Shown here: in pieces, positions 59,506 through 64,000 of the stretch
How the letters are laid out: each line of letters starts with the position of its first letter
How positions within the stretch are numbered: the stretch's first letter is position 1
Assembly (NCBI RefSeq): GCF_001412595.2
Contig: NZ_CP012640.2
Coordinates: 4,216,001 to 4,280,000, forward strand
DNA: 64,000 bases
DNA from: Massilia sp. WG5
GTDB taxonomy: Bacteria; Pseudomonadota; Gammaproteobacteria; Burkholderiales; Burkholderiaceae_D
Direction: 5' to 3'
Made by a program: the position numbers and the translations under genes
Notes under the pieces: generated by a model
The model's input: the letters and a program-made list of their open reading frames with translations, nothing else
Database searches by the model: none
What the model was told of the DNA's origin: nothing

Positions 59506-60789
59506 ATGAGCGCCTTTTTAGCCATGGTCCGCAAGGACCTGATCCTGTTCCTCTCGGACCGCCGCGCGCTCATCATGACGCTGGTGCTGCCGATCGTGAT
59601 CGCGGCCTTCTTCGGCTCCCTGTTCGGCGGCGGCGGCAAGGGCAGCGCGATCGAGGTCGCGCTGGTGCAGCAGGACGGCAGCGAGGTCGGCGCGAAGATC
59701 GCCGCCGGCCTGAAAGGCGACCCGAACCTGCGCATCACCCCGATGACGATGGCGGATGCGGAGAAGGCCGTGCGCAAGGGCGAGCAGAAGGTGGCGATCG
59801 TGCTGCCGGCCGGCTTCGGCGAAGCGGCCGGCGCGGCGCTGTTCGGCGGCGGCGAAAAACCGGTCATCCCGCTGCTGTACGACCCCTCGCAGCCGGCCGT
59901 GCTGGGCATGGTGAAGGGCATGCTGACCCAGCAGGTGATGTCGGCCGTGAGCGCCGAGATGTTCAGCGGGAAGATGGGCCAGGAGCTGACCGAGCGCAGC
60001 CTGCGCCAGCTCGACCGGCGCGCACAGGACGACCCGGACAGCCGCGCATTGCGCGACATGCTGGCCAGCGTGCAGAAGTTCCAGGCGCTGCCGCAGAAGC
60101 CCGGCGCGCAGGGCGGACAGGGTGCGAAGGGCCTGAGCATGCCTTTCGCCACGGCGGACAGGCAGCTTTCCAGCGGCGCGGCGGAGCAGGGCTACAACCC
60201 GTATGCGCATGCCTTCGCCGGCATGGGCGTGCAGTTCATCCTGTTCATGGGCATCGACATGGGCATCGGCATCCTGCTGGCGCAGCGCAGCGGCGTGTGG
60301 AACCGCCTGCTGGCCGCCCCGGTGAGCCTGACCCAGGTGCTGCTGGCGCGCGCGGCTTCCGGCGCCGTCATCGCCTTTGTCCTGCTGTGCATCGTGTTCG
60401 CGGTGGCGGCGGGCGTGTTTGGCGTGCGCATCGCCAGCCTGCCGGGCTTCATCGGGATGGCGCTGTGTTTCGCCATGCTGACCGCCAGCCTGGGCTTGCT
60501 CATCGCGGCCTTCGGCAAGACCCCGGAAGCGGCGCGCCGCATCGCGATGTTCGCGGTCCTGATCATGGTGATGCTGGGCGGGGCCTGGATGCCGTCCTTC
60601 CTGTTCCCTGAATGGATGCAGAAGCTGACGATGGCGGTGCCGACCCGCTGGGCGGTGGATGGCCTGGACGCCATCACCTGGCGCGGCATGGATGCGCTGG
60701 CGGTGGCGCCGGCGATGGCGGTGCAGCTGGGGTTTGCGCTGGTGTTCGGGGCGCTGGCGGTGTGGAAGTTCGGGCGCGCGCAGCGATAA
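59506..60789 (+). CDS. ABC-2 exporter permease
   Basis: A 427-residue ABC-2 permease: one N-terminal transmembrane helix (ALIMTLVLPIVIAAFFGSLF), a large extracytoplasmic domain (about 50-240) and five C-terminal helices (for example LLCIVFAVAAGVFGV, LGLLIAAFGKTPEAARR). This is the layout of YbhS/YhhJ-type drug or lipid exporters. The stop codon overlaps the A-run that was the T-run of the former metH terminator. Confidence 0.9.
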   Translation: MSAFLAMVRKDLILFLSDRRALIMTLVLPIVIAAFFGSLFGGGGKGSAIEVALVQQDGSEVGAKIAAGLKGDPNLRITPMTMADAEKAVRKGEQKVAIVLPAGFGEAAGAALFGGGEKPVIPLLYDPSQPAVLGMVKGMLTQQVMSAVSAEMFSGKMGQELTERSLRQLDRRAQDDPDSRALRDMLASVQKFQALPQKPGAQGGQGAKGLSMPFATADRQLSSGAAEQGYNPYAHAFAGMGVQFILFMGIDMGIGILLAQRSGVWNRLLAAPVSLTQVLLARAASGAVIAFVLLCIVFAVAAGVFGVRIASLPGFIGMALCFAMLTASLGLLIAAFGKTPEAARRIAMFAVLIMVMLGGAWMPSFLFPEWMQKLTMAVPTRWAVDGLDAITWRGMDALAVAPAMAVQLGFALVFGALAVWKFGRAQR

Positions 60790-60804
60790 AAAAACGGGCC
60801 GTGC
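60788..60804 (-). terminator. Left half of the metH terminator, split by the IS
   Basis: The A-run 60788-60794 and the arm ACGGGCC (60794-60800), plus GTGC, fit GGCCCGT at 62249-62255. Joined without the IS they form a 7-bp stem with a GTGC loop and, on the minus strand, a run of T. Confidence 0.85.
60801..60804. repeat. Target-site duplication, left copy (GTGC)
   Basis: GTGC directly abuts the left end of the IS and recurs directly after the right end (62245-62248). IS3-family elements make duplications of three to five bases. Confidence 0.8.
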
Positions 60805-60838
60805 TGAACTGACCCCGTAAAGTTGGACGGTTAGTTTA

Positions 60839-61798
60839 TTAAGCGGCCAAGGCCTGAGTCCTGTACTGAACAGGACTCAGGCCTTTTAGTTTGAGCTTGA
60901 TACGGTCGTGATTGTAATAGCGGATGTAGCGGGTCAGTTCAACCTGCAGGACGTCGATGTTGGCGAATTTGTTCAGGTAGAAGCACTCGGACTTGAGCAC
61001 GGCGAAGAAGCTTTCCATGGTCGCGTTGTCGAGGCAGTTCCCTTTGCGTGACATGCTCTGCACGAGCCCGCGTTCCCGAAGAATGCGTTGGTAGGCTGGC
61101 ATACGATACTGCCATCCCTGGTCGGAGTGCAGCATGGGTTTATCCTGTGACGAAAGCTTGCGCAATGCCTTCTTGAGCATCGAACTCACCAGGTCGAATG
61201 CAGGGCGCCGGGATGTTTCGAAGGCCACGATTTCACCGTTGTATAGGTCCAGGATTGGCGAAAGGTACAGTTTCTCGCCAGCGACGTTGAACTCGGTAAC
61301 GTCCGTCACCCACTTCTGGTTTGGACCTGCAGCTGTGAATTTGCGTTGTAACTCGTGAGGTGCAGCGTGACCTATCTCTCCTTTGAACGAGCGATATCTC
61401 TTGGGGCGCACCAATGACTTCAATCCCAGCACCGTCATCAATCGCTGTACGGTCTTATGGTTGACGAGCGTTCCTGTCTGACGAATGGCTGCGGTGACAC
61501 GCCGATAACCGTAACGACCCTTGTGACGGGCGAAAACGGATCGGATCATGGTCTTGAGCTGCTGATGTTTATCGCTCGCTTGCCGCGTCTTGAGTTGGTA
61601 GTAGAACGTGCTGCGAGCCAGCCCGGCGAACGCAAGCAAACCCGCAAGCGGATACTGCTGCCTTAGTTCCTGCACTATTTGCGCTTTGTCGGCGGCGTCG
61701 CCTTCTGCTTGGCTTGAACTAAGGCTCGCAACTTTTTTAGGTACGCATTCTCCATGCGCAGCTGATTCAACTCGGCCAACAACTCGTCGCGAGTACAC
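60839..61798 (-). CDS. IS3-family transposase OrfB (DDE domain)
   Basis: The frame covers 320 codons, but translation normally enters by -1 frameshift from orfA near 61732. It holds the HTH_21 helix (RYGYRRVTAAIRQ) and the DDE catalytic core: D in KWVTDVTEF, D in LHSDQGWQY and E in ATMESFFAVLKSE. The C-terminal YNHDRIKLKLKGLSPVQYR is typical. The first 30 or so residues before the slippery site are a shadow of orfA. Confidence 0.93.
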   Translation of the reverse strand: MYSRRVVGRVESAAHGECVPKKVASLSSSQAEGDAADKAQIVQELRQQYPLAGLLAFAGLARSTFYYQLKTRQASDKHQQLKTMIRSVFARHKGRYGYRRVTAAIRQTGTLVNHKTVQRLMTVLGLKSLVRPKRYRSFKGEIGHAAPHELQRKFTAAGPNQKWVTDVTEFNVAGEKLYLSPILDLYNGEIVAFETSRRPAFDLVSSMLKKALRKLSSQDKPMLHSDQGWQYRMPAYQRILRERGLVQSMSRKGNCLDNATMESFFAVLKSECFYLNKFANIDVLQVELTRYIRYYNHDRIKLKLKGLSPVQYRTQALAA

Positions 61799-62199
61799 TT
61801 TTCATCGTCGGGCGACGGCTCTGGTTTTGTTGTTGGAGCAGACATCTGCTTGGGCCTTCCTCGTGGGCGTGCTATCAGTGCGTCGAAACCGCCTTCTCGA
61901 TAACTGCGCTCCCATATGCCTACCGCTGCGTGATTGCGGATATTGAAAGCAGCTGCTGTTTGGCCGAATGACAGCTCATTGTCCCACATGTGCTGCAGCA
62001 CCGACAGCTTGAACTCCGCACTATACGAGCTGTGCTTCTTCTTGAGTCCGTCCTTGCCATGCACACGATACAAGCTGACCCAGTGCTCTACAGATGAACG
62101 TTGACAACCGTACTTCCTCGCTAAGGTCTTGCTGCCCCTTCGCTTGACCAAGTATTCCTGGACAATCTTGAGCTTGAACCGCTCATCGTACTTCGTCAT
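61675..62199 (-). CDS. IS3-family OrfA (helix-turn-helix)
   Basis: A 174-residue DNA-binding protein with two helix-turn-helix units (VKRRGSKTLARKYGCQRSSV and SFGQTAAAFNIRNHAAVGIW) and a C-terminal leucine-zipper-like stretch (LLAELNQLRMENAYLKKL). It binds the IS ends and provides the N-terminus of the OrfAB transposase. The ATG at 62199 is preferred; an in-frame start at 62226 lies within the terminal repeat. Confidence 0.9.
   Translation of the reverse strand: MTKYDERFKLKIVQEYLVKRRGSKTLARKYGCQRSSVEHWVSLYRVHGKDGLKKKHSSYSAEFKLSVLQHMWDNELSFGQTAAAFNIRNHAAVGIWERSYREGGFDALIARPRGRPKQMSAPTTKPEPSPDDEKCTRDELLAELNQLRMENAYLKKLRALVQAKQKATPPTKRK
61732..61738 (-). promoter_or_regulatory. Programmed -1 frameshift site A6G
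   Basis: On the minus strand the heptamer A AAA AAG occurs in CTA AAA AAG TTG (orfA frame). A -1 slip re-reads AAA AAA GTT, which is exactly the orfB frame. This is the standard way IS3-family elements make the OrfAB transposase. Confidence 0.88.
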
Positions 62200-62200
62200 G

Positions 62201-62237
62201 AAAAAACCCCAAAAGTTGGTGTCCAACTTTTGGGGTT
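62201..62237 (-). terminator. Hairpin plus T-run at the IS right end, before orfA
   Basis: A perfect 15-bp stem (62205-62219 and 62223-62237) with a three-base loop is followed on the minus strand by TTTTTT and then the orfA ATG. It overlaps the right inverted repeat. The orfA ribosome site (GGGG) lies in the stem. It should stop transcription entering from metH and hide the start of orfA. Confidence 0.8.
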
Positions 62238-62244
62238 CAGTTCA

Positions 62245-62248
62245 GTGC
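62245..62248. repeat. Target-site duplication, right copy (GTGC)
   Basis: Matches 60801-60804 and directly follows the right inverted repeat. Confidence 0.8.
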
Positions 62249-62255
62249 GGCCCGT
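62249..62255 (-). terminator. Right half of the metH terminator, split by the IS
   Basis: GGCCCGT is the exact complement of ACGGGCC at 60794-60800. It lies eight bases from the metH stop, where an intrinsic terminator would be expected. Confidence 0.85.
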
Positions 62256-62263
62256 CTTTCACA

Positions 62264-64000
<1,737 letters not shown>

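Follow-up and report, generated by a model that had tools for sequence, protein, structure and literature searches.

Insertion sequences (ISs) of the IS3 family are already known from DNA palindromes. Insertion of IS3-family elements in the repetitive extragenic palindromic (REP) sequences of enterobacteria (IS1397 and ISKpn1) is attributed to the transposase, and ISPsy8 is placed at the symmetry axis of a Pseudomonas syringae REP hairpin in five of five copies, with a 3-bp duplication (PMC1525189). Here we describe an IS3-family element in the DNA of Massilia sp. WG5 (contig NZ_CP012640.2, positions 4,216,001 to 4,280,000; this whole stretch of 64,000 nucleotides is referred to as the window) that lies in the loop of the terminator of metH. 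The element shares loop-centred insertion with the REP-loop inserters (4/4 copies in its genome) but not their target: two REP motifs are present in the source genome (34 and 12 matches) and none of the four copies had inserted in them. IS1397 and ISKpn1 are of the same family and also use hairpin palindromes, but these are REPs and not terminators; ISPsy8, which resembles the window element in its insertion at a hairpin axis, has as its target a REP of fixed sequence, and terminators are not reported there (PMC1525189). REP-loop insertion by IS3 relatives is published, and the pair of end hairpins described below is new here. We recognised no report of an IS targeting terminator loops in a literature search that had most subscription journals outside its reach.

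Group IIC introns are mobile elements associated with terminator stem-loops, which insert behind the stem and not in the loop. They consist of a ribozyme and a reverse transcriptase, whereas the window element has an IS3 transposase; its open reading frames (ORFs) matched only transposase and helix-turn-helix families in Pfam and NCBIfam, with no reverse transcriptase.

Insertion site beside metH

The element and its surroundings have the following features.

60805-62244, minus strand: IS3-family element, 1440 bp, with 24-bp imperfect terminal inverted repeats starting TGAACTGA
60801-60804: first copy of the target duplication GTGC, the terminator loop (from sequence)
62245-62248: second copy of the target duplication GTGC (from sequence)
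60794-60800: ACGGGCC, half of the split terminator stem, adjoined by an A-run at 60788-60794 (from sequence and fold of the rejoined site)
62249-62255: GGCCCGT, second half of the split stem (from sequence and fold of the rejoined site)
62264-63991, minus strand: 3' part of metH, stop at 62266-62264 (matches to Met_synt_B12 PF02965 and PRK09490)
59506-60789, plus strand: ABC-2 permease gene, convergent with metH, stop at 60787-60789 (PF12698)

The initial annotation had proposed that the rejoined site forms a perfect 7-bp hairpin with a GTGC loop, and this was borne out: ACGGGCC and GGCCCGT are perfect complements, the duplication is the loop of ACGGGCC-GTGC-GGCCCGT, and the minus strand of the rejoined site folded as a hairpin (-18.8 kcal/mol over 36 nt) followed by TTTTTTT. 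With its T7 tail, this fold on the metH strand is that of a terminator, and by the permease stop on the plus strand and the metH stop on the minus strand the terminator lies between two convergent genes. The annotation had further placed a T-run eight bases after the metH stop; the distance and the T7 tail are correct, but it is the stem, not the T-run, that begins eight bases past the stop on the minus strand.

An exact empty allele of the metH site was not found in the genus, in which 62 of 62 genomes matched the metH end. Among 29 non-self metH loci (30 were returned) there was no copy of the window hairpin in the 75 bases after the estimated stop, whose position is a few bases out in several rows. 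Other hairpins are present after the stop at several of these loci.

Copies in the source genome

All four full copies of the element in the genome (n = 4) were found in terminator-like hairpins, with the insertion centred on the loop. Their duplications, as displayed, are GTGC, CGCG, CGCGA and CGTGT, within stems of ~7 bp that have A- and T-runs outside. One copy lies beside metH and the permease gene, one beside secA and a gene for a MerR-type regulator, one beside the gene of an OmpA-like barrel protein and one beside a gene with dihydrolipoamide-dehydrogenase-like domains.

We estimated chance occurrence using the score of the metH site itself as the threshold. With the IS left out, 43 of 62356 window positions reached that score together with an A- or T-run of at least 4 (6.9e-4), and hairpins alone reached it at 1509 of these positions (2.4%). 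At 6.9e-4 per copy, four of four would arise by chance with a probability of ~2e-13, a rough figure that assumes uniform and independent insertion.

An ORF adjoining one of these copies (locus L003, 2976-3656, minus strand) matched Y1_Tnp at 21.6 bits, below the Pfam cut-off of 23, and perhaps encodes a REP-associated transposase.

Loop-centred insertion in homologues

Relatives were drawn from 80 named loci, 62 genomes of the genus, 294 of the family and 398 of the phylum, to which further copies in several genomes and 13 Escherichia coli records were added. The ends of each IS were called via terminal repeats and duplications, never via hairpins. From 211 loci with a match we obtained 117 unique sites after dropping 19 of <50% identity, 30 for which no ends were called, 4 that lay at edges, 38 duplicates and 3 with N; sites that share one genome are non-independent. 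Outgroup elements (<50% identity) had few usable ends and were excluded from the counts.

Loop-centred insertion recurs in these homologues. Hairpins centred on the duplication had a median score of 24 at the 117 sites, and the control offsets, taken from these same flanks, had a median of 8. A score of at least 15 was reached by 92 of the 117 sites versus 409 of 6318 control offsets, and at a cut of 22 or more the counts were 71/117 and 67/6318. The mean score was 22.7 at offset 0, 14.4 at -2 and 12.3 at +2, and it was ~6-8 from 4 nt outward. Among the sites with a duplication of at least 3 (n = 92), 77 had a centred hairpin and 82 had a hairpin within 7 nt.

Pairing between the arms of each site was compared with that of arms swapped between sites. 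Scores of at least 22 were reached by 59/92 true versus 81/1380 swapped pairs and, within the terminator class, by 47/57 versus 80/855; stem pairs switch between C-G and G-C with the pairing kept. The length of the duplication was not correlated with that of the loop (52 sites), and there was no clear bias in IS orientation relative to the terminator (T-run longer in 16/52, A-run longer in 24/52, equal in 12/52). The idea that the targeted terminators are unusually bidirectional was dropped, since an A-run was also present in 6 of 7 control terminators, a control that is too small.

The same pipeline applied to IMG/VR viral contigs gave 20 loci, ten with both ends, with results similar to the main set but less clean. 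Four of the seven duplication sites were centred at a score of at least 15 (L271, L272, L273 and L277), two (L276 and L279) have an off-centre hairpin by eye and L269 has none; of the three sites without a duplication, L275 passed, L281 passed with a score just at the cut and L278 failed.

Target class by lineage

The 92 duplication sites were classed as terminator (57), doubtful terminator (2), REP (18), IS66-associated hairpin (8), other hairpin (1) and unassigned (6), using text patterns with hand corrections (22 names), whereas the hairpin counts are free of hand judgement. By genome, all seven copies in G266 and all five in G308 are in terminators, two of the former with swapped flanks; all seven in G202 are in TTCCCGC REPs, a motif that matches 174 times there; and the four resolved copies in G012 (of five) are all in GTCCCCGC REPs (104 matches). 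In G018 both resolved copies are in terminators despite 121 and 15 matches of the two REP motifs. The source genome likewise has both motifs, unused by its four copies, so the choice of target belongs to the element.

The two G266 copies with swapped flanks (L156 and L157) lack matching duplications, and the left flank of each pairs with the right flank of the other (giving the duplications CTCG and CAAG), which looks like recombination between two IS copies.

The IS66-class sites (L054, L056, L057, L060, L061, L063, L072 and L083) have hairpins of the type GTGTCC[AG]C..G[TC]GGACAC beside IS66-like genes, so that in this sister set one IS uses the hairpin of another IS as its target. At the two such loci that were inspected, the hairpin extends over or borders on the start of a small ORF that precedes the IS66-like genes, which we take to be of IS66 from their arrangement.

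A quick OrfB tree was made from 82 rows; it excludes 38 other names, most of them near-copies, and four elements that have no long OrfB, L266 among them. Terminator-class rows were scattered over it, at depths ranging from close to the root out to the tips, REP-class rows fell in five separate places and IS66-class rows lay within a single set of 12 that is well supported. Six class changes are required for the 66 rows whose class is clear. Terminators as the ancestral target would be a guess, because IS150 is the sole outgroup.

ISEcB1 and empty sites in E. coli

ISEcB1, present in E. coli B and others, has an OrfB 58.8% identical to that of the window element, and a close relative in Kluyvera (L104) has both end hairpins. 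ISEcB1 or a near relative matched in 119 of 5426 E. coli genomes. The 13 records that were opened contained four distinct sites: nuoN/yfbM (ten records), sseA, fumA/fumC and a plasmid. Three of the four are terminator loops. The fum neighbour is annotated fumB in the E. coli records; presumably this is the gene named fumA.

Empty alleles were found for the three terminator sites. The joined flanks matched one place over at least 80% of their length in 4160 (nuoN), 5271 (sseA) and 5343 (fum) of the 5426 genomes; the joined nuoN flanks were identical in E308 and the joined fum flanks 99.2% identical in the MG1655 record, while DH5alpha and similar strains matched only 64% of the nuoN query. Read directly, the empty nuoN (E308) and fum (MG1655) sites are each a terminator hairpin whose loop lies at the duplicated bases. 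Three ISEcB1 empty sites read as the rejoined terminator; the plasmid site does not.

At nuoN/yfbM, comparison of L243 with L242 indicated that the element in strain 510016 occupies the same site as in REL606 but has a different left half-loop and no matching duplication.

Hairpins at the ends of the element

The element contains the following genes and hairpins.

61675-62226, minus strand: orfA, helix-turn-helix protein (HTH_28, HTH_Tnp_1), ATG at 62199-62197
60839-61798, minus strand: orfB, transposase with integrase core (rve PF00665, and NF033516 above cut-off)
62205-62237, minus strand: left-end hairpin AACCCCAAAAGTTGG..CCAACTTTTGGGGTT with a T-run behind it, inward-facing, its 5' arm being the terminal repeat (-22.5 kcal/mol)
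60850-60884, plus strand: right-end hairpin AGGCCTGAGTCCTG..CAGGACTCAGGCCT with TTTT behind it, inward-facing, within the 3' end of orfB (-29.4 kcal/mol)

The transposase is of the IS3 DDE type (NF033516, 339.5 bits versus a cut-off of 160), and the termini (TGAACTGA.../...TCAGTTCA, TG...CA) and the 4-5 bp duplications of the four own copies fit the IS3 family; named relatives, by their NCBI names, are ISEcB1, ISKpn1, IS150 and ISPsy9. In IS3 elements the orfA and orfB frames are joined by programmed frameshift. Here the two genes overlap, with AAAAAAG at 61738-61732 inside the overlap as a candidate frameshift site, and the true start of orfB, as called an ORF of 319 aa, may differ if it is produced in this way. 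By coordinates, a transcript leaving metH would pass an IS-end hairpin within ~63 bases of the stop codon, and one leaving the permease gene would do so within ~99.

Using a fold of -8 kcal/mol or lower plus a T-rich tail as the criterion, which is post hoc because it was picked after the result of a stricter detector and after the window's hairpins had been viewed, we found both ends to qualify in 36 of the 43 distinct elements of the terminator class, among which are four doubtful ones and one from Bacillota; the left end qualified in 40 and the right end in 39. Both ends qualified in 1/9 elements of the REP class (ISKpn1), 0/4 of the IS66 class, 0/8 unassigned (IS150 included) and 0/2 with other hairpins, the ISPsy9 locus L262 being left out of these counts. 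The strict detector was rejected: in the terminator group it found 0/42 left and 1/42 right ends, and even the pair of the window element escaped it because it demanded G+C-rich inner stems.

The right-end hairpins covary. In 38 distinct sequences, 97.0% of cells were paired versus 88.0 in shuffles, there were 53 double changes versus 19.1, and the covariation score was 0.348 versus 0.177, with 0/500 shuffles as high; the rows had been picked for folding as a hairpin, which favours pairing, and the shuffles leave relatedness in. Sliding the partner destroyed the signal, and one pair was C-G in 13 rows, A-U in 12 and G-C in 9.

Proposed explanation and alternatives

We are highly confident that the element targets terminator loops. 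With somewhat less assurance, we consider it likely that a broad IS3-family lineage inserts in hairpin loops, that this branch uses intrinsic terminators and that the end hairpins replace termination. The target form in this branch is an A-tract, a mostly G+C stem of ~6-7 bp, a loop mostly of 3-5, the second half of the stem and a T-tract. The transposase would recognise an extruded hairpin or its two-fold symmetry and join the IS across the loop, which would thereby be duplicated; transcripts of both flanking genes would then be terminated by the two inward-facing IS hairpins instead. Insertion would thus break one terminator and supply two, and should be transcriptionally mild for that reason. 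The terminator loop is plausibly a neutral site. We lean slightly towards replacement of termination as the function of the end hairpins.

Several observations weigh against this explanation. Ten of the 92 duplication sites fell below the hairpin cut (L086, L088, L096, L098, L101, L110, L127, L147, L195 and L249), as one would see with unstructured targets, which the initial annotation had singled out for a check; such sites are few, and four of them were still classed as REP (L088 and L110), terminator (L098) or doubtful terminator (L127). In G308 four of the five copies are at the loop edge instead of the centre, and the ISPsy9 copy L262 has no clear hairpin. The same is true of the plasmid copy L249, which is not in a terminator, so ISEcB1 is not perfectly strict. 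Both end hairpins are present in two of two Bacillota elements whose target was not classed as a terminator, and also in the REP inserter ISKpn1. The class counts are partly our own judgement, because the labels are partly hand-made.

The structural target choice suggested initially was supported by the four own copies, by the homologues with their position control and by the empty E. coli alleles of ISEcB1, and the target is probably recognised by structure rather than by sequence. It is unlikely, in our estimation, that the transposase instead reads symmetric A/T tracts that lie ~8-12 bp from the centre and enclose a G+C core, with the pairing of the arms incidental to terminators. The tracts are indeed nearly fixed: at positions 8-11, A-T occurs in 37-42 of 52 stems of the terminator class, and at position 12 in 30/52. 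Swapped arms within this class reach a score of 15 in 371/855. However, loop-centred relatives use REP and IS66-associated hairpins, most of them without A/T tracts. The core varies yet stays paired, the A/T tracts hardly vary, and outside the terminator class most sites have no such tracts; we favour structure, with the tracts possibly an added cue in this branch. We regard as highly improbable an origin by survivorship, in which insertion is wide and only copies in harmless intergenic spots persist. The four own copies and most inspected neighbours do place the element just behind genes, but any intergenic spot should be equally harmless, yet the score drops from its value at offset 0 to background within 4 nt, and the equally harmless REPs of the source genome are unused.

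The end hairpins may have been kept for the transposase, either shielding its genes from outside transcripts or persisting as ancestral features lost elsewhere for other reasons; we find this credible, if somewhat less so than replacement of termination. The transposase genes of other ISs (IS10/IS50) are protected from read-through, and here the orfA start comes directly after the left hairpin. There are only 3 to 5 independent contrasts on the tree between end hairpins and target class, too few for the link to be significant, but for the pair of ends none is reversed. Against this alternative, it is antisense transcription that the right hairpin faces, and the pair is mostly missing from elements in REP or IS66 hairpins. 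The alternative overlaps with replacement of termination, because the same structures could do both jobs.

Normally, breaking a terminator should let transcription run on into the gene that follows. Elements that enter terminator loops and bring replacements with them would, if this is true, explain in a simple way how a transposon can remain harmless. A bolder version, on which we are nearly evenly divided but tend to doubt, is that the lineage is built for silent insertion: terminators would be found by shape, split in the loop and termination restored both ways, the end-hairpin pair would be mostly lost upon a switch to REP or IS66 hairpins, and the target class would be switchable and tied to the need for repair. 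Relatives with terminator, REP and IS66-hairpin targets make the reading of DNA structure by a DDE transposase testable, and with ISEcB1 this can be addressed in laboratory E. coli. Placing cargo behind genes without breakage may be a use.

Other relatives

The OrfB of ISKpn1 is 54.4% identical to that of the window element and groups on the tree with two terminator-class elements; the ISKpn1 copy examined (L261) is in a weak REP-like hairpin (score 15.5). A broken element beside ugd in E. coli SCPM-O-B-9504 (L266), 79% identical to ISKpn1 DNA, is in a terminator-like hairpin, not a REP, and has no duplication.

Three Bacillota plasmid relatives are in hairpins, one of the three terminator-like. 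The elements on a Lysinibacillus plasmid (L264) and a Cytobacillus plasmid (L265) are in what looks like one and the same hairpin, oriented oppositely; it may be a Bacillota repeat that has no name as yet.

IS150 is of the same family with a related transposase, and its copy L267 has no end hairpins by the criterion used. Its three joined sites scored 9, 9.5 and 16, so one of the three is above the loose cut of 15, a sample too small for a conclusion. Two of the seven E. coli copies fetched interrupt genes. The other five (L267, L289, L291, L292 and L294) are beside hok genes (hokA in three, hokB and hokE), and one IS150 site near hok may recur.

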